Made by a program: the position numbers and the translations under genes. Of a DNA stretch of 23,114 nt, positions 156 to 21,159 are shown piece by piece. The DNA comes from a virus, in IMG/VR virus record IMGVR_UViG_3300036774_000024, positions 1-23,114 of that record; one strand, given 5' to 3'. Below the pieces are notes generated by a model. The model was not told the DNA's origin. It saw only the letters and a list, made by a program, of their open reading frames with translations, and made no database searches. The stretch's first letter is position 1; each line of letters starts with the position of its first letter.

Positions 156-731
156 ATGCCTAAGAACACGCCACTTCCAGAAAAATATCAAAAAGCACTT
201 TCCCTCCTTGCTGATGGAAAACTCTCATATCGTGAAATTGCGATAGCTTGTAATATTAACGTTGATGAGTTTTATGGCCTCCTTGAAGGAACCAACACTA
301 AATCTCCTCACGTTCAAGAGAAGTTTACTGAAGAATATGAGCGTATAGTAAAACAAATAGATAAGGATATACGCAAATTAGCTAAAAGCTGCAGGAAACA
401 AACACTTTATCTCTTAAACACCTTCCTATCAAAACATCAAGATATTAAGAAATCAGACCATAACACAGTAAGAGCGTTGACATCCATTGCCAACGGCTTG
501 TCTAAAGTGACTCCCAATATAGAAATTGGGAGTTTTTCATATACAAAGGGTTTGAGCCCTGAGGATATATATGCTGAATTTAAACGACTTAGCGGACTTG
601 CATCTGACCGAGGAACAATTCAAAGTACTTCCACGGGAGGAGCAGGAGAAATATCTCTTCCTCCTGGATCAAGAGGTGCAGTTACGCAAGAGCCAGAAGA
701 TCCTATTCTACCAACCGAACCCGAGGCTTAA
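156..731 (+). CDS. terS: Terminase small subunit (putative)
   Basis: A 191-residue protein at the first position of the cluster and directly before the large terminase, where small subunits normally lie. Small subunits bind the packaging site and present DNA to the motor. Residues about 20-45 (KLSYREIAIACNINVDEFYG) look like a helix-turn-helix, followed by a long charged helical part. The last ~50 residues are low-complexity (Ser, Gly, Pro, Glu) and lie where the DNA also encodes the N-terminus of the large subunit in another frame (571-731). The start is the first ATG of the ORF; its Shine-Dalgarno AGGA is weak and 13 nt away. The assignment rests on position and the HTH-like segment, since small subunits are poorly conserved. 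Confidence 0.72.
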   Translation: MPKNTPLPEKYQKALSLLADGKLSYREIAIACNINVDEFYGLLEGTNTKSPHVQEKFTEEYERIVKQIDKDIRKLAKSCRKQTLYLLNTFLSKHQDIKKSDHNTVRALTSIANGLSKVTPNIEIGSFSYTKGLSPEDIYAEFKRLSGLASDRGTIQSTSTGGAGEISLPPGSRGAVTQEPEDPILPTEPEA

Positions 732-2100
732 AGCTTTTCACCTATCCCCTGTTACAGTCAGAGCGGTGTTCGGTGGAAACCGGTGCGGTAAGACGACTTG
801 TGGTGGGATGGAGTTCCTTTTTCACATCACGGGCATCTATCCGGACTGGTATCCCAAGGAAATGCGGTATGCTTATCCGATAAAAGGCCGGATTTGCGCT
901 ACAGACTATACAAAAGGCGTTGGCGAAGTCATAGTACCCTTCCTGGAAGAATGGCTGGATATGAGCCTGGTAGCTCGTAAGATACGGAATCCACTAGGAG
1001 TTCCTACAAAATGGATTCTAAAGAATGGATCGGTCTTTGATATTTTAACCTATGAGCAATCAGTTGAGACATTTGAGGGGTGGAAAGGCCACATTGCTTG
1101 GTTTGATGAGCCACCGCCACGTGATAAATATATCGCAACCCTAAGAGGGTTAGTTGACTATAAAGGACGGTCCTGGCTTACTCTCACACCCCTCAACCAA
1201 CCTTGGATATACGATGAGGTCTATACGAAAAACGAACCAGACAGAATCTTTGTGGTCACAGCCGACATCCGGGATAACCCACATCTTAGTGAGAGTGCAA
1301 TTAAAGAATTCGAGCAAAATCTCACAGAAGATGAAAAAGAGGCTAGGCTTCACGGACGATTCATGCACCTCACGGGTTTGGTATATAAAGAGTTCAACCC
1401 CGATATTAACATCTGTGAACCACCTGCTATCAAACCTACTTGGACCAGATATATGGCGATAGATCCACATGAAAGGACAGCAACAGCTGTTCTCTGGATG
1501 GCAGTAGATCATGATGATAACCATTGGGTCTATGATGAGCTATGGCTTGCGGACATGGATATTGAGCAGATTGCTCATGCAATACATGTTCAAGAAGGGG
1601 ATCTTAAACCTCGCATCAGACTCATAGACCCCCATAACGATAAGGACAATGCAGTGTCCGGAGGTTTTAATATACGTAAAGAACTTATGAAGCATGGCGT
1701 TTACTGCGAGCGTGCGAACTCTGATCCAATGCTGGGGAAGTCCCGTATCAGGCAGGCCCTGAAATCCAAATATGTTTCAATTTATAAGACGGAAGTTCCC
1801 CAGTTGAGGATCAGCAGGAATTGTAAACAGACTATCTATGAATTCCAACATTATATTTGGAAAGATTACCGGCGCAATAAAGAAGAGTTTGGTTTGAAGG
1901 AGGAGGTTCATAAAAAGAACGATCATTTTATGGATTGTCTTAGATACATTTATAACCATACTCCAAGATACATTCCTCCTGAAGATGAAGAAGATACTGC
2001 AGATATCAAGTACGAGGGAACTTATGCTAAGTATCCAGTAAGACAGCCGGCATCTGCTAGCTATCATTCTCTTGTTGAACCTAAAGCGGGGCAATTTTAA
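571..2100 (+). CDS. terL: Terminase large subunit, ATPase and nuclease
   Basis: A 509-residue packaging motor that would dock on the portal, translocate DNA by ATP hydrolysis and cut the concatemer. Walker A is GGNRCGKTT (residues 68-76) and Walker B is AWFDEPP (from residue 176). The C-terminal RNase H-like nuclease has plausible metal ligands D298 (AIDPHE), D353 (LIDPHND) and D455 (DHFMDC). The start at 571 has GAGG (561-564) with a 6-nt gap. It places the first 161 nt inside the small-subunit gene in another frame. The LTEEQFKVLP...EEQEKYLFLL segment resembles the N-terminal linker of many large terminases, which supports the early start. The length is normal for the family, with no sign of interruption. 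Confidence 0.96.
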   Translation: MLNLNDLADLHLTEEQFKVLPREEQEKYLFLLDQEVQLRKSQKILFYQPNPRLKAFHLSPVTVRAVFGGNRCGKTTCGGMEFLFHITGIYPDWYPKEMRYAYPIKGRICATDYTKGVGEVIVPFLEEWLDMSLVARKIRNPLGVPTKWILKNGSVFDILTYEQSVETFEGWKGHIAWFDEPPPRDKYIATLRGLVDYKGRSWLTLTPLNQPWIYDEVYTKNEPDRIFVVTADIRDNPHLSESAIKEFEQNLTEDEKEARLHGRFMHLTGLVYKEFNPDINICEPPAIKPTWTRYMAIDPHERTATAVLWMAVDHDDNHWVYDELWLADMDIEQIAHAIHVQEGDLKPRIRLIDPHNDKDNAVSGGFNIRKELMKHGVYCERANSDPMLGKSRIRQALKSKYVSIYKTEVPQLRISRNCKQTIYEFQHYIWKDYRRNKEEFGLKEEVHKKNDHFMDCLRYIYNHTPRYIPPEDEEDTADIKYEGTYAKYPVRQPASASYHSLVEPKAGQF

Positions 2101-2588: not shown

Positions 2589-2746
2589 ACGTTAGATCGT
2601 TATATATTAAATTAATCAATGAGGGAAAAGATCCTAAGGATGCGGCTCGTGAAGCTCAGGAACGTACTGGATTCTCTTTAGTTACCGGACGTCCTATTAA
2701 AAAAGATTTACCCTACAAAAAGGTTTACAATGGCCAATACCGTTAA
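2576..2746 (+). CDS. Small hypothetical protein preceding the portal (56 aa)
   Basis: A 56-residue ORF beginning 13 nt before the end of the upstream gene and ending 17 nt into the portal gene. The sequence reads METLNVRSLYIKLINEGKD, then PKDAAREAQERTGFSLVTG, then RPIKKDLPYKKVY. The ARDPKDAA-type helix followed by RTGFSLVTGRP resembles a motif I recall from small proteins upstream of phage portals. No catalytic residues are visible. The compact overlap with both neighbours supports real translation coupled to the portal. Confidence 0.68.
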   Translation: METLNVRSLYIKLINEGKDPKDAAREAQERTGFSLVTGRPIKKDLPYKKVYNGQYR

Positions 2747-4550
2747 GCAACCAGATGTAAAATCTGAATCTCAGAAAGATCCAATGGTTTCATTTATCGT
2801 TGATGAATTTCAACGTTATGAAAGTCATTGGAGAGACAGATTTGAAAAAGCTAAGAAGATTTACGACATGTGGTTAAATAAACCCCCTACCCGTACTTTC
2901 GATTGGCAGAATCAGGTGCATGTTCCTATGATGGTGGAAGCTGAACAGACTATTACCCCAAGATTATTTGCAGCTTTATTTCCTACTGAGGCTCCTATAG
3001 ACTGCCAGGTATATGGGGAAGCTTCTGAGGAACAAGCGATTATTATTAAGAGTATGATTGCACATGAGTTCAGGGTCTCTGATGTTCAAGGAGAATCTAT
3101 ACCAGCATTAACTCAATGTTGTTTGTTGGGAACAGGTTACATAGAATCTCCGTGGTTAGTTGAACGTACTTGGCAAGTTGATAAAAGTACTATGCAGAGA
3201 TATTTGGCTGTGACTGCTAATCGGCCTGATTGCAAGGCTGTGAACTTTTTTGAATTCTACCCGCATCCGGCTAAGTTATCCATGAGAGATGGCCTGCCTT
3301 TAATAAGGCGACGGTTCTGTGATGCGGAATATTTGAAACGTTTGGCAGAGAATCCTCATTTCAAGATGGAAAATCTGCAAACGGCATTAGCTTCAGAGTC
3401 TGTAGTGGATGTTCCTGCAACCATTGTGGATCAAAATGGCAAGGCTATGAATCTTAAGCAACGTGAGAAATATGAACTTCTTGAATACTGGGGTCCTTGG
3501 GATACGACTTATGAGAAAGATGGTAAACCTAAAAAAGATCTGGCTGTTCCTCATTGGATCATTGTAGTCAACCGGAGTGTTAAGATCCGCAGTATCCCTA
3601 ATCCTTTCAATCATCAACGCCCTCCTTTCTGCAAACTTAAGTTATTTGAAGATGTTAATCCAAGTTGGTTTGGGATTGGCGTGGGTCAGGTAGGTTATCC
3701 TACTCAGGAACGTTTGAACAAAATCGTTAACCAGAGATTGGATAATGTAGACCTTGTTCTTAATAAACAAGGTTTTTACAATGGAAATGATACTTTGATC
3801 AATACTAAGAAACTTCAAGTATCTAAACCTGGGCAATGGCATAAGGTATCTGATACGGTAACATCTATACGTTGGATGGATACTCCTGATGTCACGCAGT
3901 CTTCCTACAAAGAAGAAGAGATAGCAAAACAAGATTTTAGAGAGAGTACCGGAGCCACGGTGCCCTTGATGCCCACAGATGAAGGCCAGCATCGGACTGC
4001 CATGGGGATCAATTTGCTTCAGGGAGCAGCGGGTGCAAGATTTAGACCGGTACTCCGTAGATTAGAGACAGATTTTATCCAAGATCTGGCTTTTATGTAT
4101 CTTTCCAATTTGCAACAGTTTATGACAACTCCGGAATGGATAAGTGTTACCGGAGAACAGGGTAAGAAGCAACCGATTATGATCCGTCCGGAAGATATCC
4201 AGGCTAAAGTTCTGTTTATACCTACTGGTTTATCAGAGACTTTAAATAAAGAGGTTCAGATTGGACAGTTGCTTAGATTCAAAGAGGTTAGTGTTCAAGA
4301 TCCGACAGTTAATCGTACAGAGATCAATAAGCGTATTGCTGAATTAATGGGATTCAAAGACATTGAAAAGTTGCTTATACCTCAGCAGAATAATTTAGTA
4401 CAACCGGGAGGGTTGGCTCCAAATGAACAGCAGCAAATTAGACAGAGATTATCTGAAGGTGCTACACCTGAGCAGATTCGTCTTGAGCTTCTTGGTCCTC
4501 CTCCTGCTAACGAACAGCCTGCTCCTGGTCCCGGAGGTCCTGTTGGCTAA
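2730..4550 (+). CDS. Portal (head-tail connector) protein
   Basis: A 606-residue protein after the terminase, of the size and character of portals of short-tailed phages. Portals form a dodecameric ring at one capsid vertex, through which DNA enters and to which the tail adaptor attaches. Visible features: an N-terminal helical part (DEFQRYESHWRDRFEKAKKIY), the FDWQNQVHVPMMVEAEQTITPRL block, a central part with GVGQVGYPTQERLNKIVNQRLDN (helices lining a channel in this family), and a Pro/Gly/Gln-rich C-terminal tail. That tail overlaps the transglycosylase frame. It is intact, with no frameshift. The assignment rests on sequence character and gene order. Confidence 0.92.
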   Translation: MANTVKQPDVKSESQKDPMVSFIVDEFQRYESHWRDRFEKAKKIYDMWLNKPPTRTFDWQNQVHVPMMVEAEQTITPRLFAALFPTEAPIDCQVYGEASEEQAIIIKSMIAHEFRVSDVQGESIPALTQCCLLGTGYIESPWLVERTWQVDKSTMQRYLAVTANRPDCKAVNFFEFYPHPAKLSMRDGLPLIRRRFCDAEYLKRLAENPHFKMENLQTALASESVVDVPATIVDQNGKAMNLKQREKYELLEYWGPWDTTYEKDGKPKKDLAVPHWIIVVNRSVKIRSIPNPFNHQRPPFCKLKLFEDVNPSWFGIGVGQVGYPTQERLNKIVNQRLDNVDLVLNKQGFYNGNDTLINTKKLQVSKPGQWHKVSDTVTSIRWMDTPDVTQSSYKEEEIAKQDFRESTGATVPLMPTDEGQHRTAMGINLLQGAAGARFRPVLRRLETDFIQDLAFMYLSNLQQFMTTPEWISVTGEQGKKQPIMIRPEDIQAKVLFIPTGLSETLNKEVQIGQLLRFKEVSVQDPTVNRTEINKRIAELMGFKDIEKLLIPQQNNLVQPGGLAPNEQQQIRQRLSEGATPEQIRLELLGPPPANEQPAPGPGGPVG

Positions 4551-4947
4551 TTATTATAACGATTTCTATACTGGCGTTGATCCGGATAGAGTTTATCAAA
4601 TAGAGTCCAGTGGAAATCCTAACGCTTATAATAAATCTAGCCATGCTACTGGGTTAGGACAGATTACACCTATTGCTCTTAAAGACTGGAATCAAATGAA
4701 TTCGGATCAATATAGTTTACCGCAGCTATATGATCCTCAGATTAATCAAAGGGTGGCATACTGGACTTTAACTCAAAGAATACCTAGTATGCTACAGGCT
4801 TACGGTAAAGAAGTCACTCCTGAGAATGTTCTATGGGCTTACCATGACGGGATAGGTAATGTACGCAAGGGGAAGAAGTCTGCTGCAGCTGAAGAATACA
4901 TACGGAGGTATAATGGATATCGAGAAAGCTCGAGAAATACGCAGTAG
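4543..4947 (+). CDS. Lytic transglycosylase (SLT-like), probably virion-associated
   Basis: A 134-residue protein with the SLT fold signature: catalytic Glu21 in YQIESSGNPNAYN, the GLGQITP motif at 37-43, and AYHDGIGNVRKG near residue 95. The family cleaves the MurNAc-GlcNAc bond of peptidoglycan. Next to the portal it is more likely to open the wall during DNA entry than to be the late endolysin. I chose TTG 4543 because GGAGG (4533-4537) sits 5 nt before it and the overlap with the portal is only 8 nt. The frame stays open upstream to an ATG at 4423 (GGGAGGG 10 nt before). That longer 174-residue form would add a hydrophobic, signal-like stretch encoded inside the portal gene, and cannot be excluded. 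Confidence 0.85.
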   Translation: MANYYNDFYTGVDPDRVYQIESSGNPNAYNKSSHATGLGQITPIALKDWNQMNSDQYSLPQLYDPQINQRVAYWTLTQRIPSMLQAYGKEVTPENVLWAYHDGIGNVRKGKKSAAAEEYIRRYNGYRESSRNTQ

Positions 4948-5113
4948 TCAACTTTGGGAAGAGATCTGTACAGAATTAGATTTTTGGATACGTTCTGAAG
5001 AGTTGAAACTCCGCGCTTGCGTACCTGAACAACTGATTGAGATTCAACAAGTTATAGAAACGTTGGAGAAGGTTAAATCATTACCAACGATAGTAATTGA
5101 TAGAGAAGAATGA
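4913..5113 (+). CDS. Small acidic helical protein (66 aa)
   Basis: Start ATG 4913 is chosen because GGAGG (4904-4908) lies 4 nt before it; a longer in-frame ATG at 4859 has no such site. The protein begins MDIEKAREIRSSQLWEEICT and contains ELDFWIRSEELKLRACVPEQ and a Leu/Val-rich helix ending LPTIVIDREE. It looks fully helical. I recall similar proteins (LW..I..ELD.W...L..C.PEQL...Q..I..LE..K.LP) upstream of scaffold genes in other phages. Role unknown; a head-assembly factor would fit the position. It overlaps the transglycosylase end by 35 nt. Confidence 0.75.
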   Translation: MDIEKAREIRSSQLWEEICTELDFWIRSEELKLRACVPEQLIEIQQVIETLEKVKSLPTIVIDREE

Positions 5114-5271
5114 AATATCTTTTAGATAAATTTACAGTACCTGCCTTAGATGCGGAAGCTTATGAGCGCATTTTTGGCAAACGCTCGTCTTCGTCTAAAG
5201 ACGCTCGTGATCAGGACACACGTGAAAGTCCTGCAAAACAAGGAGAGCAGCAATGCCCGACCCCATCGTAG
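5110..5271 (+). CDS. Small hypothetical protein before the scaffold (53 aa)
   Basis: The ATG at 5110 overlaps the preceding stop (ATGA), and the ORF ends 19 nt inside the scaffold gene. It starts MKYLLDKFTVPALDAEAYER and continues IFGKRSSSSKDARDQ, with a polar, charged, presumably disordered tail. The FTVP...YERIFGK segment seems to be the only ordered part. Coupled start and overlap with the next gene support translation. Function not recognised. Confidence 0.6.
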   Translation: MKYLLDKFTVPALDAEAYERIFGKRSSSSKDARDQDTRESPAKQGEQQCPTPS

Positions 5272-6041
5272 CGCCAGCAGCGGGAGCCGCTACCCCGCCA
5301 GCCCAGCCAGCTCAACCGGCTACACCTCCTCCCGTGTCTAAACCAGGAGTTACGCCTCCTCCAGCGGCGCCAAAAGCTGGTGAACCTGCGGTACCAGGTA
5401 CGGTACCTCCTCAGATGGTTCCTATTACGGCTTTACATGAGGAGAGAGAAAAGCGTCAAGCTCTCCAAGCTGAAATGGAAGCTTTGAAAAGGATAGCTGG
5501 ACAGAATGTTCTTTTTGACATTAACGGTAATCCAGTTCCTAATCCTGCACAGGCTCAACCTCCGCAGAATGATTTTGCGAAGCAGATGGATCAATTGTGG
5601 GAGACTGATCCGCGTAAGGCGGTTCAAGCGGAACTGATGGCAGCATTGAGTTGGTATGATGATATCAATGCTAAGATTGATTATCAGGAAGGAGCTTTGG
5701 CTCAGAAGTACGCTGATTTCAATAATTACCGGACTGAAGTTCGTCAGTATGTCCGTTCTCTACCTCCAGATCAGAGAACTCGCGAAGGCATCGTTGAACT
5801 TGCTTATTATGCTGTTCGTGGTCAAAAGATGGACAGTATTATAAACAAAACCAAAGCTGAAATGGAAGCTGAAATAATGCGCAAGATTCAAGCTGGAGAA
5901 TACGCGGCTGGATTACCCGTAGGAGGGGCTTCTCAACCTCCGATAATACCAGGGGCGGTAACGTTGACTCAGGAGCAGAAGAATGCGTGTTTAGCTTTAG
6001 GGATTACTGAGGCAGATTATATCAAAAATATGAAACAATAA
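5253..6041 (+). CDS. Capsid scaffolding-like protein
   Basis: A 262-residue protein with a long Ala/Pro-rich N-terminus (residues 1-55), a charged coiled-coil-like helix (ALHEEREKRQALQAEMEALK, about 60-80), more helical charged sequence, and a basic C-terminal part ending in EADYIKNMKQ. Scaffold proteins of tailed phages are helical, low-complexity and poorly conserved, and lie between portal and major capsid gene, as here. It would template procapsid assembly and then leave. The start ATG follows AGGAGAGCAGCA, a good ribosome binding site. The call rests on position and composition; no protease signature is seen. Confidence 0.75.
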   Translation: MPDPIVAPAAGAATPPAQPAQPATPPPVSKPGVTPPPAAPKAGEPAVPGTVPPQMVPITALHEEREKRQALQAEMEALKRIAGQNVLFDINGNPVPNPAQAQPPQNDFAKQMDQLWETDPRKAVQAELMAALSWYDDINAKIDYQEGALAQKYADFNNYRTEVRQYVRSLPPDQRTREGIVELAYYAVRGQKMDSIINKTKAEMEAEIMRKIQAGEYAAGLPVGGASQPPIIPGAVTLTQEQKNACLALGITEADYIKNMKQ

Positions 6042-7184: not shown

Positions 7185-7883
7185 ATGAGTATTGTTGCGA
7201 GTGAAAATTTCGCATATTTGCTTGACCCAGGACTCAGGAAGATATTTATGGATGAATATACCCTTCCTGAAGGACAAGTCGATAATTTGTACGGAGTAGA
7301 AAAATCTACGAAGGCAACAGAATATGATCTGGGTATCGGCGGGTTAGGCGATCTTGAGGAATTTACGGGGACTATTCCTTACAATGATTTTGCACAACAG
7401 TATAGGGTTTCCTATACACATAGGGAATGGTGTAAAGGTATTAAAATTGAGCGTAAGTTAGTGGATGATGACCAATACAGCATCATCAACAAGCGTCCTG
7501 CTCAGTTGGCTCTTGTGGCCAAAAGAACACGTGAGAAACATGGCGCAACAGTGTTTAATAATGCATTCAATACCACGATATTTGCTGGTGGAGATACGTT
7601 AGCACTATGTTCCACTGCACATACTTACGTGGGTACGGTAACAACCGTAGGCAACAGTGGTACCACGGCTCTTTCTGCCACAGCGGTAGAAGCAACAAGG
7701 TTACTAGGTCGGCAATTTACAGATGAAACAGATAATCTGATGGTTGCTAACTTTGATACCATAGTTGTTCCTCCGAACCTGGAAGAAACAGCTTGGGAGA
7801 TCGTTAATGCTAATGGTAAGCTTGGAACGGCAGACAATGATCCTAACTTCTCGAAAGGGAAATATAAGATCATCGTTTGGGAT
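7185..7883 (+). CDS. Major capsid protein, exon 1 (residues 1-233)
   Basis: The gene starts at ATG 7185 after AGGAGG (7173-7178). Exon 1 encodes a typical tailed-phage capsid N-terminal two-thirds: SENFAYLLDPGLRKIFMDEY, then FTGTIPYNDFAQQYRVSYTH, KRTREKHGATVFNNAF, and DTIVVPPNLEETAWEIV near the end. The ORF read without splicing runs 14 codons past the proposed junction to a TAA at 7923-7925, giving a 246-residue protein lacking the capsid C-terminus. Splicing after GGGAT (7883) joins Asp233 to Tyr234 of exon 2 and gives KIIVWDYLTDTNNWFMVD, a 298-residue protein. An HK97-like fold is expected from the family; I see no mutation within the exon. Confidence 0.9.
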
Positions 7884-8502
7884 TTTCTTCAATCAGATAG
7901 TCCCGATACGTGGAGATACAACTAATGACACTTGAAGAGAGAGCTTATATAGCTGGTATAGTTGATGGAGAAGGTTGTATTACACTTTCTCAGACTAAGA
8001 CAGTTTACGGTAAAGAAACTTATCGTGCTATGGTAATTGTCGAAACAACCAGCGAAGTTCTACAACAGTATCTTGTGAAAGTTACTGGTCAAGGAGATAT
8101 TAGAAGAAATCCTCATAGCGGTAATCATAAAGACCGCTACCTCTGGTGTTTAGCTGGTAAAACCGTAATTAAGAATTTTTTGTTAGAGATCGAGCCTTAT
8201 TTAGTGATTAAGAAACAACATGCTAATATAATGCTTGATTTTCTTTCAGAGGATGAACTTCATTACGGTAAAGGATGTATTGCAGGACATTTAGATAAAT
8301 ATAGAGCATACCGGCAATTATTCCGTAAGTTAAACTTCCGTGGACGTATTGAAAATCTTGCGAATTCGGAGAAACCCCTGCTTGATAGCGAGGTAACCCC
8401 GAACCAAACTCCGGAAACGGATGTGTGTGTAGAGACTAATGTGCAAGGGCCGAAAGGCGTGATATAGTCCGACACTCCAGCGAAAGTTGGAGATTACAGA
8501 TG
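7884..8502 (+). ncRNA. Group I self-splicing intron in the major capsid gene
   Basis: A 619-nt intron. P1: exon UUGGGAU (7877-7883) pairs with the internal guide GUCCCGA (7900-7906), giving the required U.G at the 5' splice site (7883.7900). P10: AGAUA (7895-7899) pairs with UAUCU (8503-8507), the start of exon 2. Core: P3 CUUGC (8357-8361) with GCAAG (8443-8447); P4 CGGAG (8367-8371) with CUCCG (8409-8413); P7 GACUA (8434-8438) with UAGUC (8465-8469); P8 GCC-GAAA-GGC (8449-8458); P9 CUCCAGC-GAAA-GUUGGAG (8475-8492). P5 is plausible near 8377-8393. The omega G is 8502. GAUAUAGUCC (8461-8470) is the classic conserved P7 3' strand of group I introns. The subgroup is not assigned. Confidence 0.93.
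7925..8467 (+). CDS. LAGLIDADG homing endonuclease encoded in the intron
   Basis: A 180-residue protein with one clear LAGLIDADG motif, AYIAGIVDGEGCI (residues 7-19). It is followed by the usual RYLWCLAGKTVIKNFLLEIE and PYLVIKKQHANIML segments. Single-motif enzymes of this family act as homodimers that cut intron-less alleles and so drive intron homing. Start ATG 7925 has GGAG (7912-7915) 9 nt upstream, and its A is the last base of the stop ending unspliced exon-1 translation (TAATG). A GTG at 7910 in frame is less likely. Residues from about 145 on are encoded by the intron core, and the stop TAG (8465-8467) lies in the P7 3' strand. The frame differs from the capsid frame. Confidence 0.92.
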   Translation: MTLEERAYIAGIVDGEGCITLSQTKTVYGKETYRAMVIVETTSEVLQQYLVKVTGQGDIRRNPHSGNHKDRYLWCLAGKTVIKNFLLEIEPYLVIKKQHANIMLDFLSEDELHYGKGCIAGHLDKYRAYRQLFRKLNFRGRIENLANSEKPLLDSEVTPNQTPETDVCVETNVQGPKGVI

Positions 8503-8700
8503 TATCTAACCGATACCAATAACTGGTTTATGGTTGATAGCCGGATGGCAAAACTTTACCTGAAATGGTTCAATCGTATTCCGATCGAATTCAATAAGGA
8601 TAAAGATTTTGACACCTACATTTCCAAGTGGTCTTGTTATACCAGATACAGCTATGGATTCTCTGGTTGGAGTTGGTTGTACGGGCATAATGTAGCTTAA
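8503..8700 (+). CDS. Major capsid protein, exon 2 (residues 234-298)
   Basis: Encodes the C-terminal 65 residues of the capsid protein: YLTDTNNWFMVDSRMAK, then WFNRIPIEFNKDKDFDTY and a C-terminal GWSWLYGHNVA. The YLTDTNNW and YGHNV blocks resemble the C-terminal part of known phage coat proteins. It has no independent role: it needs splicing to be joined to exon 1. An ATG at 8500-8502 immediately before it would let gene finders call a 66-residue protein, but that G is the predicted last intron base. The stop is followed directly by AAGGAGG for the next ORF. Confidence 0.88.
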   Translation, partial: YLTDTNNWFMVDSRMAKLYLKWFNRIPIEFNKDKDFDTYISKWSCYTRYSYGFSGWSWLYGHNVA

Positions 8701-12526: not shown

Positions 12527-13225
12527 ATGTCGCTTCAGACCAAAATACTTGGTAAGATCAGAGGGATATTTTTGGATTTACTGCCTTCAGGTAGAGAAGA
12601 AGAACAATTTCATTTGACCGGACAGGCTGAACAAATTGTTGCTTTTGGCGCGTCATATTATCAAGAAATCGTAAGACAGGGCAGGGCGTTTATGGCTAAT
12701 ACTACAACGGCGGTGGCTTCGGTAATAGCTGTTCCTTCCACTGCCTATGGTTTTGCTATTTGGAATGGAGAGTCTGATGGCGGACGTTCCTATATCATAG
12801 ACCAGATTGGCGCCCTCTATACCGTTAATGGTGGTGCAGCTTTGGTTCATAATGGTATTATTGCCTGTCTTGGTCAAGTGCGCGAAGCTTTGCCTACTTG
12901 CACTAATCCAGCAGTTAAACAGATGAATGGTATGGGAAACTCCGATTCCAAGGTTAAAGTAATCCTTGCTGCAGATAACCCTTATGCCGGCGGCGCAGGA
13001 ACAGTCTTATCCACCACGGGTATTGCGGGCAACTGGACGCCAATCGGGAACTCTGTCAACAGTGCGGTTAATGCTCTTCCGGGATTTCAGAGTGTGGTAA
13101 ATATAGACGGCAGAATAATTGTTCCTCCAGGTAGGTTATTACTGGTGCATACTCTCGGTTCGGTTAATACTTCATCGGCACAGCTTTATATCTGGTGGCA
13201 TGAAAAAGTCATACTTAATGGATAG
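12527..13225 (+). CDS. Paralog A of a triplicated structural family (232 aa)
   Basis: First of three consecutive homologous genes. Shared landmarks: KI.GKIRG at the N-terminus, LTGQAEQIVAFGA, EIVRQGRAF, AIWNGESDGGRSYIIDQ, ACLGQVREALPT, GNWTPIG, LPGFQSVVNIDGRIIVPPGR and a final W-containing strand. The lack of signal peptide or catalytic motif, the beta-rich look and its place among fibre-like genes suggest a virion component. AAAGGAGGG precedes the ATG. This copy is the most divergent of the three (for instance WNGES in place of YNNEP). Family name unknown to me. Confidence 0.8.
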   Translation: MSLQTKILGKIRGIFLDLLPSGREEEQFHLTGQAEQIVAFGASYYQEIVRQGRAFMANTTTAVASVIAVPSTAYGFAIWNGESDGGRSYIIDQIGALYTVNGGAALVHNGIIACLGQVREALPTCTNPAVKQMNGMGNSDSKVKVILAADNPYAGGAGTVLSTTGIAGNWTPIGNSVNSAVNALPGFQSVVNIDGRIIVPPGRLLLVHTLGSVNTSSAQLYIWWHEKVILNG

Positions 13226-13234
13226 GAGGATTCC

Positions 13235-13915
13235 ATGGGTGGCGACAAACTACACGGAAAAATACGTGGATTAAATACGGACGCCTTTTATGGCGATGGC
13301 AATGAGGAATGCGAAGCCGAAGTAACCGGACAAGGTGAACAACTATGCGCCACCGGAGCTTGTTATATGTCCGAGATAGCCCGTCAAGGCCGTTCTTTCT
13401 GGATCAATACGATAGCCCAGGTAGCCTCTGTTATCGCTATGCCTACCACAGCCTGCGCTTTTGCTATCTATAACAATGAACCTGATGGCGGTAGATGTTA
13501 TGTTATAGACCAAGTGTGGGCGTTATTTACAGCAAATGCCTCTATCTTACCGCAGGCTTGCCTTGTTGCTTGTCTAGGACAGGTAAGAGAAGCTGTCCCT
13601 ACGAATGCTATGACAGCGACAATCAATCTTAAAAATTACAATGGGACCAATAAGCCAGATTCTCGTTCAAGATGTATTCTGACCGTTACTACATTACCAA
13701 CGACAACAGGATTTGCGGGTAGCTGGATGCCGATTACCGACACAGCTAATGCTGGAGTAGCAGCGCTACCAGGGTTCCAAAGAGTTTATAATATTGACGG
13801 AAGGTATATTGTCCCGCCTGGAAGATACTTCGCGGTTCATTGCGTAAGTGCCAAGACTGACGTTCAAGCGCAATATGGTATTGCCTGGACGGAAAAATAT
13901 CTGGCTCTAGGATAG
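13235..13915 (+). CDS. Paralog B of a triplicated structural family (226 aa)
   Basis: Homologous along its whole length to the genes on both sides: HGKIRGLNTD, VTGQGEQLCATGA, EIARQGRSFW, AIYNNEPDGGRCYVIDQVW, ACLGQVREAVPT, GSWMPI, LPGFQRVYNIDGRYIVPPGR. It has several more Cys residues than copies A and C. AGGAGG lies before the ATG, and the gap to copy A is 9 nt. A heteromeric assembly with the other copies is an attractive inference. Confidence 0.8.
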   Translation: MGGDKLHGKIRGLNTDAFYGDGNEECEAEVTGQGEQLCATGACYMSEIARQGRSFWINTIAQVASVIAMPTTACAFAIYNNEPDGGRCYVIDQVWALFTANASILPQACLVACLGQVREAVPTNAMTATINLKNYNGTNKPDSRSRCILTVTTLPTTTGFAGSWMPITDTANAGVAALPGFQRVYNIDGRYIVPPGRYFAVHCVSAKTDVQAQYGIAWTEKYLALG

Positions 13916-13923
13916 GAGGTTTT

Positions 13924-14598
13924 ATGAACGAGATTAAACTTCTCGGAAAAGTTAGAGGTCTAAACACAGACCAAGTAGAAGAACCGGGAGCAGAAGAAAT
14001 ACAGTTTGCTCTAACCGCCCAGGCTGAACAGCTTGTAGCTCATGGTGCGCAATGGAACCAGGAAAACGTCAGGCAAGGCCGGGCATTCTGGGTAGCCAAC
14101 GCCATAGGAACACCCGTTGCGGCTCTTACTGCCATACCGACTACAGCTGCAGCTCTTGCTATCTATAATAACGAGCCAGACGGCGGACGTTCCTATGTCA
14201 TCGATTATGTCTGGTGCTTTAATGTAGCAGTAACAGCTGTTACCCAATTCCACGCGGGCATGATAGGTTGTCTTGGTGAAGTCAGGGAAGCTATCCCAAC
14301 AGCTGGAGCTCCTGTTATAAAGAACGCTTGCGGTTCTGGTAAACTTGATACACGATGCAGACCTATTATTGCAGGAATGGGTGCAGGTTCTGGTTTAGCA
14401 GCCAACTGGTTTCCCATGGGACCTACTTGGAAATCATCTGTGGTAACTTTACCAGGTTTAGCTATGATTGTTCCAGTTGAAGGTAGGGTAATAGTTCCTC
14501 CAGGAAGGTATTTCGGAGTCGCTGTACTTTCATCCATTACAACCCATACCTATATCTGTGGGATAGGTTGGACAGAAAAACAGTTAATATTAGGATAA
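13924..14598 (+). CDS. Paralog C of a triplicated structural family (224 aa)
   Basis: Third tandem copy: LGKVRGLNTD, LTAQAEQLVAHGA, ENVRQGRAFW, AIYNNEPDGGRSYVIDYVW, GCLGEVREAIPT, ANWFPMG, LPGLAMIVPVEGRVIVPPGR, and a closing GIGWTEKQLILG that matches the WTEKYLALG end of copy B. B and C share more exact blocks with one another than with A, suggesting that the A/BC split is older. AGGAGG precedes ATG 13924. Its stop overlaps the start of the repeat protein (TAATG). Confidence 0.8.
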   Translation: MNEIKLLGKVRGLNTDQVEEPGAEEIQFALTAQAEQLVAHGAQWNQENVRQGRAFWVANAIGTPVAALTAIPTTAAALAIYNNEPDGGRSYVIDYVWCFNVAVTAVTQFHAGMIGCLGEVREAIPTAGAPVIKNACGSGKLDTRCRPIIAGMGAGSGLAANWFPMGPTWKSSVVTLPGLAMIVPVEGRVIVPPGRYFGVAVLSSITTHTYICGIGWTEKQLILG

Positions 14599-15311
14599 TG
14601 AGTCTTCTACTACTTTTTAACCAATCAAGTGGCACTCCAAAAACGTACTACGAGACTTTATCGGTTATTGAGTCTAATGTAGTAACATTGGCTAAACTTT
14701 CCACTTATTTTCGTTCTCTTACTATTTCCAACTCTCCAACTATAACGATTGATAAATTATCTTCTTATTTGCGTTCTTTAACTGCAGTTGAATCTTCTTC
14801 AATTGGAATGTCAAGATTTTGTGGTTACTTTAGGACTTTTAGTACCATTGAAACATCAAATATTGTTCTTTCAACTCTATCTAGTTATTTCAGGATTTTG
14901 TCAATAACAGAAGTATCTGTAATAAATCTTTCACGTTTTTTATCTTTCTTCCGTTTATTTTCAATTATAGAAATAAGTGTTCCAAAGTTAGATACTTTAA
15001 CTTCTTTATTCAGAAGTTTTATAGTTACGGAAGTGAGTATAGTCAATCTAGGAAAGTTGACTTCGTTTTTCCGTTCTTTGATTGTTACAGTGATTTCAGT
15101 AATTACTTTATCAACTATACGGACTGTTGTTAAAACATTGAAAGTGGTAGTTAGTTTTATCGTCAGTTTAACGTCTAACGTAATATACTGGTTGATCTTT
15201 GTATCAGGAAGAATCATTCAGAAAAATTCCATATTAAGAAATTACGGTAGGATTGTTATCCTAACGAGTGGAAAAATATTAAATCGATTAAAAGATAGGT
15301 TCTATGGGTAA
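14598..15311 (+). CDS. 20-residue-repeat protein, probable beta-solenoid fibre (237 aa)
   Basis: ATG 14598 shares its A with the preceding stop (TAATG). After a short N-terminus (residues 1-16) come eight 20-residue repeats in exact register, starting at residues 17, 37, 57, 77, 97, 117, 137 and 157, with a degenerate ninth at 177. The repeat pattern is (Y/F)-F-R-S-L-T-x-x-E-x-S-x-(V/I)-x-L-x-x-L-x-S, two short strands per repeat, very poor in Gly and Pro. A basic C-terminus (FVSGRIIQKNSILRNYGRIV) follows. This looks like a beta-solenoid or elongated fibre and is unlike its neighbours in composition (Ser, Ile, Leu, Thr). Function unknown; receptor contact or a tail/head fibre shaft are possibilities. 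A membrane protein is less likely because Arg/Lys recur every repeat. Confidence 0.8.
   Translation: MSLLLLFNQSSGTPKTYYETLSVIESNVVTLAKLSTYFRSLTISNSPTITIDKLSSYLRSLTAVESSSIGMSRFCGYFRTFSTIETSNIVLSTLSSYFRILSITEVSVINLSRFLSFFRLFSIIEISVPKLDTLTSLFRSFIVTEVSIVNLGKLTSFFRSLIVTVISVITLSTIRTVVKTLKVVVSFIVSLTSNVIYWLIFVSGRIIQKNSILRNYGRIVILTSGKILNRLKDRFYG
14646..15185 (+). repeat. Tandem 60-bp coding repeats (nine units, last degenerate)
   Basis: The repeats of the protein at 14598 have a period of exactly 60 bp with no insertion or deletion, each beginning at a Tyr/Phe-(Phe)-Arg codon block. DNA conservation is weak beyond the TATTT.CGTTCTTT-type boundaries while the protein pattern is kept, so the units have been diverging under selection for protein structure. 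This is not a CRISPR array: there are no conserved repeats separated by unique spacers. Confidence 0.8.
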
Positions 15312-15624
15312 GATACAACTTCAGTCCGGAGAAGTAATACAGGATAGACGCAGAGATGGAGCAAGACTGCGCCTTGATATAGGGGATTGGATAAAGATAT
15401 ATTCTTCAATAGTTATTACACTTTTATCGGGAATTTGGTTTGCTTCTAATGTAAATTTTACGGTAAAACAACATTGTGAGGATATAACTAAATTGAAGAT
15501 TGATGTTGAAAAAGTAACTAAAAATACTAACGATAACACCATGGAAATACAGAGTATAAAAGGAATATTGGCTAAAATCGATTCTAATACAGAAAAACTT
15601 CTTAACATACATCTAGTAAAATGA
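15304..15624 (+). CDS. Membrane-anchored coiled-coil protein, lysis-region candidate (106 aa)
   Basis: A basic N-terminus (residues 1-28), one hydrophobic segment (about 33-50, YSSIVITLLSGIWFASNV), then a polar helix with heptad-like spacing (ITKLKIDVEKVTKNTNDNTM, IKGILAKIDSNTEKLLNI). Such TM plus coiled-coil proteins in phages include holin-associated and spanin-like proteins. It could equally be a structural membrane-contact protein. The start overlaps the repeat gene by 8 nt and the end overlaps the next by four (ATGA). Confidence 0.65.
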   Translation: MGKIQLQSGEVIQDRRRDGARLRLDIGDWIKIYSSIVITLLSGIWFASNVNFTVKQHCEDITKLKIDVEKVTKNTNDNTMEIQSIKGILAKIDSNTEKLLNIHLVK

Positions 15625-18402: not shown

Positions 18403-20487
18403 ATGGCACTTCCAGAGATAGACTATTTTGAAGGTTGCGATACTGATGCCCATGCCCAGGCGGCGTATGTGACGAATGCTACATTAACTTCTCGTTATCC
18501 CACACAAGATACCGACCACGTAAAGGCGACTGATTCCAATTCTGGACAAGAATCTTATCATGCTACCGACCCTACTAAATCTCTTACTGGAACACACATA
18601 GGGCAAGCCTGGGATGCTACTCAAATTGCAAATCAAAGGGTTCATATAGATTTGGGTTCAGCAAAAATAATAAATAAAGTATATTATGAGAATGGACATT
18701 CCAGCGGTCTTTATCCAGAATACGGAGTTAAAAACTTTACTCTTTGGGGTTCAAATTCTGCGACAGCATTTGCCGATTTAGTTTATACTCACGATACCGA
18801 TTGGGTTCAATTAACCACTTCGCAGGCAACTTTCGACATTCACGTTTCCGCTGACCAAGCTGACCCCAAATATATTACCGTTACAAACAATGTTTCTTAT
18901 CGCTACTACGCTTTTAAATTTGCGGATAACTGGGGTAACGTAAATACGATAGGATTAAGGCGCATAGAACTTCAAGAATATCCTCTCCAATCCTACTCCG
19001 AACCCACCATCAAAACTCAAGGTTCTTATTCGTTAAAGGCAGTGGCGGCGATAACGGATTCACTTAATAAAACCCTGACTAAAACATTCTCACCCGCCTT
19101 ATATTTATCAGGAGTAAATACCGCCAAGATAGATATGCATGCAAGCAGGACAGGGGCGAATGTGAAGTTGGGGTTGCACAATACAAAAGTTCCTACTGCT
19201 GAATATGCGACTGGTTCCAATACTTTACTTTCCCATTTTAATGTAGCAAAAGCAACTTCTACTACGGCGGCGACTGGACAGACTATCACTTATGTAGAAA
19301 CGGCAGATTGCACTATCGCACAGCCAAAGTTCGGTGCGATGTCTTTAGTGTTAGATGGAAATTCGGATTACGTAACTGTTCCCGATAGTGATGATTGGAA
19401 CTTTGGCACAGGTGATTTTACTATTGATATGTGGGCAAGAATACCAAGTTTTCCTAATAATAATTTAGGATTATGCGGGCAGTATGTTGACGGTTCGCAT
19501 AGATGGGCTTTTTATTTTGATTGGCAAAATGCAGGAACAGGAGTATATAAAATATCATTCCTTGAAGGTGTGAGTATTGTTTTATCTACAAGTAATATAA
19601 CTTTTGCGGTAGATACTTGGTATCATTTAGCAGTAACGAGAAACGGTAATGCTTGGAATATCTATGTTAATGGCGTATCTTTAGGCTCTGTAACTGACAC
19701 AAGAACAATGCCCGATATTGCTTCCGCTTTAGATATAGGATACGCAGTTGGTGTATATTTTAATGGATATATTGACGAGGTTAGAATATTAAAAGGAACA
19801 GCTATTAACTTCGCTAATGTTACCACCGAACTCACTCCCACAATAAACACAGCAGATACATACCAGACAGTAAGCTGGGATTTGAGTGGAGTGGCGGATG
19901 CGGATAAGAATGCGATTGATAAGTTTATAATCACTCCGACTAATGCGGATGCGGAGAATACGTGTTATTTCGATAACTTCCTCACCGTAGTTAATGTCAA
20001 TGTCAGTATAACCGTACTTACTTTAGTACTTACTCCCAGCGCTGTTACCTATAAGGCCGACTATTCAGTTTCTGCTCAAACTTTAACTGCTACAGCAAAT
20101 AGTGTTGTTTTAAACAGTGCTTATGCGGTACTTGCGCAAGCTTTAACTTCCGGTATAGGAAATGTTGTTTTAGAAAGTGGTTATCTTGTTTCTGCTCAAG
20201 CATTAACTTCTTCAGTAAAATCTGTAGTTTTACAGAGTTCGTATGCAGGAGTAGGTGGAGTATTAACCTTAACCTTGTATGGGCCCACGATTATCATAGA
20301 TTGTGCTCATCCTGTTACTGCTTTAAGTTTAGTATTAGTGCTTTATACAGGATCTTGTGTAGGTACTGCTAATGTATATCCAGTCGTAAATAAAATAAAG
20401 TCGAGGATACCAACATCAGCTTGGGTGCCGGATGAACCAGTCGTTACCGGAGGGTGTTCATTATGCGGTTCATATTTGTATGAATAA
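18403..20487 (+). CDS. Discoidin-like/LamG-like adhesin or receptor-binding structural protein (694 aa)
   Basis: Residues about 30-190 look like an F5/8 type C (discoidin-like) carbohydrate-binding domain: RVHIDLGSAKIINKVYYENG, FTLWGSNSATAF, YRYYAFKFADNWGN. Residues about 295-475 form a LamG/concanavalin-A-like lectin domain: DGNSDYVTVPDSDDWNFGTG, FTIDMWARI, WYHLAVTRNGNAWNIYVNGV, YFNGYIDEVRILKGTAI. Residues about 554-613 are three 20-residue repeats, and the C-terminus has a CSLCG motif. Two sugar-binding-type domains suggest attachment to a host glycan. The N-terminus shows no signal peptide, as expected for a virion protein. Domain calls are from pattern recognition alone. Confidence 0.78.
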   Translation: MALPEIDYFEGCDTDAHAQAAYVTNATLTSRYPTQDTDHVKATDSNSGQESYHATDPTKSLTGTHIGQAWDATQIANQRVHIDLGSAKIINKVYYENGHSSGLYPEYGVKNFTLWGSNSATAFADLVYTHDTDWVQLTTSQATFDIHVSADQADPKYITVTNNVSYRYYAFKFADNWGNVNTIGLRRIELQEYPLQSYSEPTIKTQGSYSLKAVAAITDSLNKTLTKTFSPALYLSGVNTAKIDMHASRTGANVKLGLHNTKVPTAEYATGSNTLLSHFNVAKATSTTAATGQTITYVETADCTIAQPKFGAMSLVLDGNSDYVTVPDSDDWNFGTGDFTIDMWARIPSFPNNNLGLCGQYVDGSHRWAFYFDWQNAGTGVYKISFLEGVSIVLSTSNITFAVDTWYHLAVTRNGNAWNIYVNGVSLGSVTDTRTMPDIASALDIGYAVGVYFNGYIDEVRILKGTAINFANVTTELTPTINTADTYQTVSWDLSGVADADKNAIDKFIITPTNADAENTCYFDNFLTVVNVNVSITVLTLVLTPSAVTYKADYSVSAQTLTATANSVVLNSAYAVLAQALTSGIGNVVLESGYLVSAQALTSSVKSVVLQSSYAGVGGVLTLTLYGPTIIIDCAHPVTALSLVLVLYTGSCVGTANVYPVVNKIKSRIPTSAWVPDEPVVTGGCSLCGSYLYE
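20062..20241 (+). repeat. Three tandem 60-bp coding repeats in the LamG-like protein
   Basis: Units begin at 20062, 20122 and 20182, each encoding Y-x-V-x-A-Q-x-L-T...VVL-x-S. The DNA is still similar (GTTTCTGCTCAA is shared by units 1 and 3; AGTGTTGTTTTA-type blocks recur). A degenerate fourth unit starts at 20242, and a weak forerunner lies just upstream. Confidence 0.8.
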
Positions 20488-20496
20488 GGGGGAAAA

Positions 20497-21159
20497 ATGA
20501 CTAGAGTAGAGATACGTAATTTAGCTCGTAAAGGTTTGGGTGAGACAACGGCAGCCTTTTGGACTGATTTGGAACTTAACGGTTGGGTAGATGATGCTTG
20601 TGATGATCTAGCTTTTAGGGCCAAATGCATCAAAGCTAATGGTAAGATGACAACTGTTTCCGGTACGGCTGAATACACGTTACTTACCGCCTATCCAACA
20701 CTGCTCGCTGTTTTAGAAACCTATTACTATATCAATGGTACAACCTGGGATAAGTTAGATCCTACTTCTAGGGATAAATTAAACTCAGAAGAGTCTGGAT
20801 GGAAGAGTGTCGCAGCTGGTATTCCAGATAAATATTATTGGAGTAAAGAAGAGAACTTGATTGGGTTCTACCCTAAACCAAATGCAACCAATGCTGGAAC
20901 TAACTATGTAGAAGTTTATTATGCCAGAACACATACTGATATTACGGATGATGCTGCTGATCCAGATATACCTTTAGCTTTGCATCCAGCTATTGCTGAC
21001 TTTGTGATTGCAAGAGGAAATGAGACCCGCGGTTGGGGAGATAAGGCTAATGATAGATGGCAAAAGTATTTTACAAAGATTCATGATTATCAGGTTGAAC
21101 GAGATAGAGAACGCGAAGATGATGACATCATTATGAAGTCAATCTACAATATGAGGTAA
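20497..21159 (+). CDS. Head-tail adaptor (connector) protein, podovirus-like
   Basis: A 220-residue protein beginning MTRVEIRNLARKGLGETTAA, with FWTDLELNGWVDDACDDLAF, KLDPTSRDKLNSEESGW, GIPDKYYWSKEENLIGFYPK and YYARTHTDITDDAADPDIPL. The L..W(V/I)DDA.DDLA, GIP..YYW and IGFYP.P blocks are characteristic of tail adaptor proteins that extend the portal in short-tailed phages (T7 gp11 and P22 gp4 type role). AAGGGGGA lies before the ATG. It lies immediately before the large tail gene, the usual adaptor-nozzle order. The fold cannot be proven by eye. Confidence 0.75.
   Translation: MTRVEIRNLARKGLGETTAAFWTDLELNGWVDDACDDLAFRAKCIKANGKMTTVSGTAEYTLLTAYPTLLAVLETYYYINGTTWDKLDPTSRDKLNSEESGWKSVAAGIPDKYYWSKEENLIGFYPKPNATNAGTNYVEVYYARTHTDITDDAADPDIPLALHPAIADFVIARGNETRGWGDKANDRWQKYFTKIHDYQVERDREREDDDIIMKSIYNMR

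Follow-up and report, generated by a model that had tools for sequence, protein, structure and literature searches.

In parallel beta-solenoids the coils keep the same length and indels are few, and the solved structures nearest to the protein described here are 3lyc (a putative pectinase), 4opw and 6n2c, the best matches (Z 13-15, ~3 Å) of a low-confidence model based on the protein's relative; they differ from it in being cellular proteins, at 5-10% identity and without sequence relation. Among other short-period repeats, collagen-like proteins carry Gly at every third residue, and pentapeptide repeats have a period of 5 and the form A(D/N)LXX. The nearest system in sequence is a phage protein of 582 aa (positions 3586-5334 of IMGVR_UViG_3300024520_000991, hereafter L036), the C-terminus of which consists of about 14 units of the form RLRTLTASITLVPVLSTITS. 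The window analyzed here, meaning the whole stretch of 23,114 bases, is an IMG/VR virus record from an uncultured tailed phage, and it encodes a protein of eight 20-residue units, without the Gly-X-Y pattern of collagen-like proteins, that shares its repeat with the tail of the L036 protein. We consider it about an even chance (roughly 0.5) that this protein is a short phage beta-solenoid forming part of an accessory fibre, spike, or adhesin.

The gene boundaries proposed by the sequence-only reading (Table 1) proved correct, with the ATG, the stop codon, and the length of 237 aa all verified. The ATG shares bases with the stop codon of the gene before it (TAATG) and lacks a Shine-Dalgarno sequence at normal spacing, leaving a weak ribosome-binding site; the gene is therefore probably translationally coupled to the preceding one. 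Sixteen residues precede the first unit, and the stretch that follows the repeat could serve as a cap or anchor.

Table 1. Coordinates of the repeat gene, its parts, and other annotated genes in the window
Feature	Position	Strand	Description
Terminase small and large subunits	156-2100	+	
Portal	2730-4550	+	
Transglycosylase	4423-4947	+	followed by a scaffold-like gene
Major capsid protein	7185-7925 and 8500-8700	+	followed by a variable block
Three paralogous genes	12527-14598	+	~225 aa each; upstream of the repeat gene
Repeat protein gene	14598-15311	+	237 aa; ATG at 14598, stop ends at 15311
Eight 20-residue units	14646-15125	+	residues 17-176
Degenerate ninth unit	15126-15185	+	residues 177-196, VVKTLKVVVSFIVSLTSNVI; aligns with the L036 units
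C-terminal 41 residues	15186-15308	+	outside the repeat; basic and hydrophobic
106-aa protein	15304-15624	+	overlaps the repeat gene; low GC
694-aa lectin-like protein	18403-20487	+	LamG-3 (E 1e-19) and F5/8-type-C-like match
SU10-type adaptor	20497-21159	+	downstream of the repeat gene

The eight units follow one another without an indel or a register shift, as is typical of the coils of beta-solenoids. Self-similarity of the whole protein (BLOSUM62) reached 1.14 at lag 20, 0.90 at lag 40, and 0.60 at lag 60, and was below zero at all remaining lags within 3-61; for residues 17-176 the value at lag 20 was 1.91, compared with at most 0.40 at the best lag of 3000 shuffles. A pentapeptide repeat was ruled out by the values at lag 5 (-0.76) and lag 10 (-0.62). 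The expectation that the repeat would be unlike collagen was confirmed by a negative value at lag 3 (-0.29) and by a composition of only 8 Gly and 3 Pro among 237 residues. The units had initially been called exact, which holds for their length and register and not for their sequence, given that any two are alike at 3-11 of 20 residues and 21-34 of 60 nucleotides. Their consensus, (Y/F)F R (S/T) (L/F) (S/T) V x E x S V I x L S x L x S, bears out the motif first noticed, (Y/F)FRSLT..E.S...L..L.S: position 1 is Y, F, or L, position 2 is aromatic or L, position 3 is Arg in seven of the eight units (Glu in unit 1), position 9 is Glu in six, and all eight have L or F at position 5 and L, I, or M at position 15.

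At the DNA level, Tandem Repeats Finder detected no repeat. Nucleotide identity at lag 60 (0.529) matched the expectation after synonymous codon shuffling (0.521 +/- 0.017), and between units codon position 2 was the most alike (0.66) and position 3 the least (0.40). Arg at position 3 is encoded by CGT, AGG, or AGA, and Ser by TCN or AGY, so that codons two steps apart are in use for both residues. Because the units resemble each other in nucleotides only as far as the protein demands, the repeats are old and maintained by selection on the protein, in agreement with what had been deduced from their diverged DNA. Among the six frames, only that of the repeat gene shows the full repeat signal and is free of stops.

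A repeat pattern run over 2.9 million viral contigs yielded L036 as the sole true relative. With low-complexity masking off, the window protein matched it by tblastn in the same register (E 3e-7, 45 bits), compared with at most 31.6 bits for column-permuted sequences (n = 200), at most 27.3 for shuffles (n = 200), and 27.7 for the reverse; masking weakened the match by three orders of magnitude in E. The unit profiles of the two proteins agree in register 0, none of 300 permutations did equally well, and their joint profile matched those two records alone among six tested together. Beyond the 20-residue unit and its register, the proteins have in common Arg or Lys at position 3, Leu at positions 5 and 15, Thr or Ser at position 4 and often at 6, and a location in a phage structural region, where a homolog of window gene 11882 lies upstream of the L036 repeat gene. 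The L036 units differ in being more regular and richer in Ala, Val, and Leu, with Pro or Gly at position 13; the window protein for its part has Glu at position 9. The architecture also differs, since the L036 repeat is fused behind an N-terminal domain of ~250 residues (no Pfam match; lectin-like by eye only), whereas the window protein stands alone.

The other nine of the ten contigs retrieved by the DNA pattern were rejected on inspection as pentapeptide-like or other period-20 proteins, and a first, stricter DNA pattern gave no match. Two proteins to which the repeat pattern led (L031:4158-12344 and L033:4414-12843) exceed 2700 residues and contain a strong stretch of period 20; by eye they resemble phage tail-tip proteins. 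Direct searches with the window protein found no relatives in viral contigs, annotated phages, or the PDB, and a profile from five repeat blocks found no match in the PDB; in the tblastn of annotated phages, part of a sequence like this is masked, so that negatives there are weak. Apart from L036 itself, further scans with L036 gave three matches, all in cellular genomes and all false. The repeat profile had one match in 970 cellular genomes, which are samples from three phyla and thus do not prove absence; it was dismissed because it falls in a reading frame without repeats. Literature searches retrieved nothing on this 20-residue repeat. The proposal that the repeat is new was thus upheld insofar as Pfam, NCBIfam, the PDB, and the annotated-phage collection held no reliable match to the protein, and is qualified by a weak match of phrog_22415 (unknown function) to the relative: this family matched the L036 repeats at E 6e-5 and a made-up repeat consensus at E 5e-6, did not match the window protein itself at E 1, and has poor specificity, as it also matched in two cellular control genomes. 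Nor did any confident match to a membrane or non-repeat family, or predicted disorder, emerge. While the repeat sequence is absent from the family libraries searched, the kind of structure it suggests is familiar.

For the window protein alone, AlphaFold2 returned a helical model of low confidence (pLDDT 46) that was unusable, and the mean Chou-Fasman propensity was 1.15 for beta and 0.98 for alpha structure. A second model, of L036 units 1-11 as a monomer with the window protein as the second row, was all-beta with a pair of strands in most of the 11 units, also at low confidence (pLDDT 56, pTM 0.47). Foldseek found no PDB match to this model below E 0.5 and no viral structure below E 0.014, the best viral match (E 0.014, TM 0.54) being to an uncharacterised protein from an uncultured member of the Caudovirales. 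VIA-align, run on Foldseek's top chains, gave the highest scores to 3lyc (Z 14.9; rmsd 2.8 Å over 175), 4fd0 (Z 13.4), the tapirin C-terminal domain 6n2c (Z 13.3; 3.1 Å over 214), the putative adhesin 4opw (Z 13.2), and the Awp1 adhesin domain 7o9q (Z 12.7), although regular repeat models often give middling Z with unrelated solenoids, here including leucine-rich repeat (LRR) proteins. We read these bacterial and fungal surface proteins as beta-solenoids. The initial suggestion of a solenoid is thus moderately supported, and we put a beta-solenoid fold at about 65-70% likely, the rest falling to fibre-shaft, LRR-like, or membrane alternatives. The accompanying view that the repeat differs from beta-helices found no support, as the model itself gives a beta-helix-like solenoid.

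Modeled in this way, about nine coils of 20 residues would stack into a parallel beta-solenoid, with a pair of short strands in each coil, near positions 3-9 and 12-16. L5, V7, V/I12-13, L15, L18, and F2 would line the inside of the coil, Ser, Thr, and Glu would sit at its turns, and the single Arg at position 3 of each coil may build up an Arg ladder along the surface. A rod of this kind, gaining about 0.48 nm with every coil, would be ~4-4.5 nm long.

The repeat gene sits among virion structural genes, all on the same strand, with those for terminase, portal, and capsid upstream and the SU10-type adaptor gene downstream (Table 1). Within the major capsid gene, ~600 bases (7902-8502) form an interruption that contains an out-of-frame 185-aa ORF resembling a LAGLIDADG endonuclease by eye; no Rfam intron matched this insertion at the gathering score. 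Two relatives (L010 and L011) carry a related ORF elsewhere in the major capsid gene (around residue 94), and the gene is continuous in several others. Phages with a related portal have the core genes in common, and the stretch from window gene 10133 to the adaptor varies by phage. In one relative (G1), the slot of the repeat gene is taken by a collagen-like lipoprotein, which is likewise followed directly by a membrane/coiled-coil protein; in another (G2), the variable stretch encodes a secreted protein rich in Gln and Gly. Three portal relatives (L051:10476-10964, L054:9668-10165, and L059:9167-9829) encode proteins of 160-220 aa with EVPKYVEK-type repeats, two of which end in a Cys-x-x-Cys tail. 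The three paralogs that precede the repeat gene have no reliable family match; they recur one-to-one and in the same order, at 70, 73, and 78% identity, in a contig with different portal and capsid genes (L064:4641-6716). That contig has the paralog block without the repeat gene, which shows the latter to be separable. The lectin-like protein (Table 1) has a period-20 stretch of its own at the C-terminus (QALTSSVKSVVLQSSYAxxA), and its identity with the present repeat was unsupported (permutation p 0.61).

From this setting, the protein, encoded in an accessory stretch of the genome that varies, would be produced alongside the structural proteins of the virion and would act as part of an accessory fibre, spike, or adhesin touching the host surface. 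We infer its place in the virion, its oligomeric state, and its surface binding; the protein itself shows no signal of a receptor-binding, tail-attachment, or trimerisation element (domain or motif). The fibre role named in the sequence-only reading is likewise suggested by the position in the structural cluster, the collagen-like protein in the relative's slot, and the lectin-like neighbor. A more far-reaching version, which we regard as doubtful, is that the repeat represents a class of 20-residue beta-solenoid not described before, carried by phages and bearing a ladder of Arg or Lys, that moves from phage to phage as a gene of its own or as a tail attached to larger proteins and serves as a spacer of adjustable length or a rod that binds polyanions.

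Instead of a monomeric solenoid, the 20-residue unit could be a beta-hairpin running along the axis of a trimeric fibre shaft of the triple beta-spiral or beta-prism type. The L5-x-V7 ... I13-x-L15 pattern, in which the intervening residues are polar, recalls adenovirus-type shafts, as does the Pro or Gly at position 13 in L036, and the AlphaFold2 model was of a monomer only. That monomer, however, already forms a regular solenoid-like stack that matches solved beta-solenoids, and position 13 of the window repeat is mostly V or I, not Gly or Pro, so that we hold a shaft to be unlikely.

A role in the membrane or cell envelope, exerted with the overlapping downstream gene in, for example, lysis or superinfection exclusion, appears equally unlikely. 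The product of that gene has a basic N-terminus, a hydrophobic segment at about residues 36-54, and a coiled-coil-like C-terminus, making it a membrane protein by eye. GC and GC3 are 0.30 and 0.24 in the repeat gene and 0.32 and 0.23 in its neighbor, compared with a GC of 0.45-0.47 in the preceding genes; this common low GC, together with the overlap, suggests that the two form a cassette (14598-15624) whose genes arrived together. In addition, the repeat protein has a GRAVY of +0.61, its hydropathy rises above the usual 19-residue threshold in two places toward the end of the repeat, and its single-sequence AlphaFold2 model was helical. Nevertheless, these hydropathy peaks are limited to the last units; with one Arg per unit and many Ser and Thr, most of the repeat has no run of membrane-span length; inspection by eye revealed no signal peptide; and the L036 repeat is attached to a large protein in the structural region of another phage.

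Still less probable is a degenerate LRR of the bacterial 20-residue type. Its LxxLxLxxNxL pattern resembles the hydrophobic spacing 2-5-7-12-15-18, several LRR proteins were among the structural matches (Z 7-12), and one was the top PDB row of Foldseek (E 0.51); but position 10 has S, S, S, T, V, I, V, I in place of the conserved Asn, no Pfam LRR model matches at E 1, and these matches have an rmsd of 5-7.8 Å compared with 2.8-3.4 Å for the best beta-solenoids, PcpA (4cp6; 2.9 Å over 146) being the exception. A spurious or decaying ORF without a product, to which the lack of a close relative and the weak ribosome-binding site could point, is scarcely credible in view of the codon-position pattern between units and the single stop-free frame that carries the full signal.

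If the beta-solenoid fold is confirmed, this protein would add a solenoid repeat sequence class that is unmodelled in the family libraries searched, and would show one repeat type standing alone in one phage and used as a C-terminal extension in another. General views of phage fibres would stay unchanged. Within this group of phages, the accessory region appears to be a site where repeat proteins, be they collagen-like, Gln/Gly-rich, or of the 20-residue type, swap.
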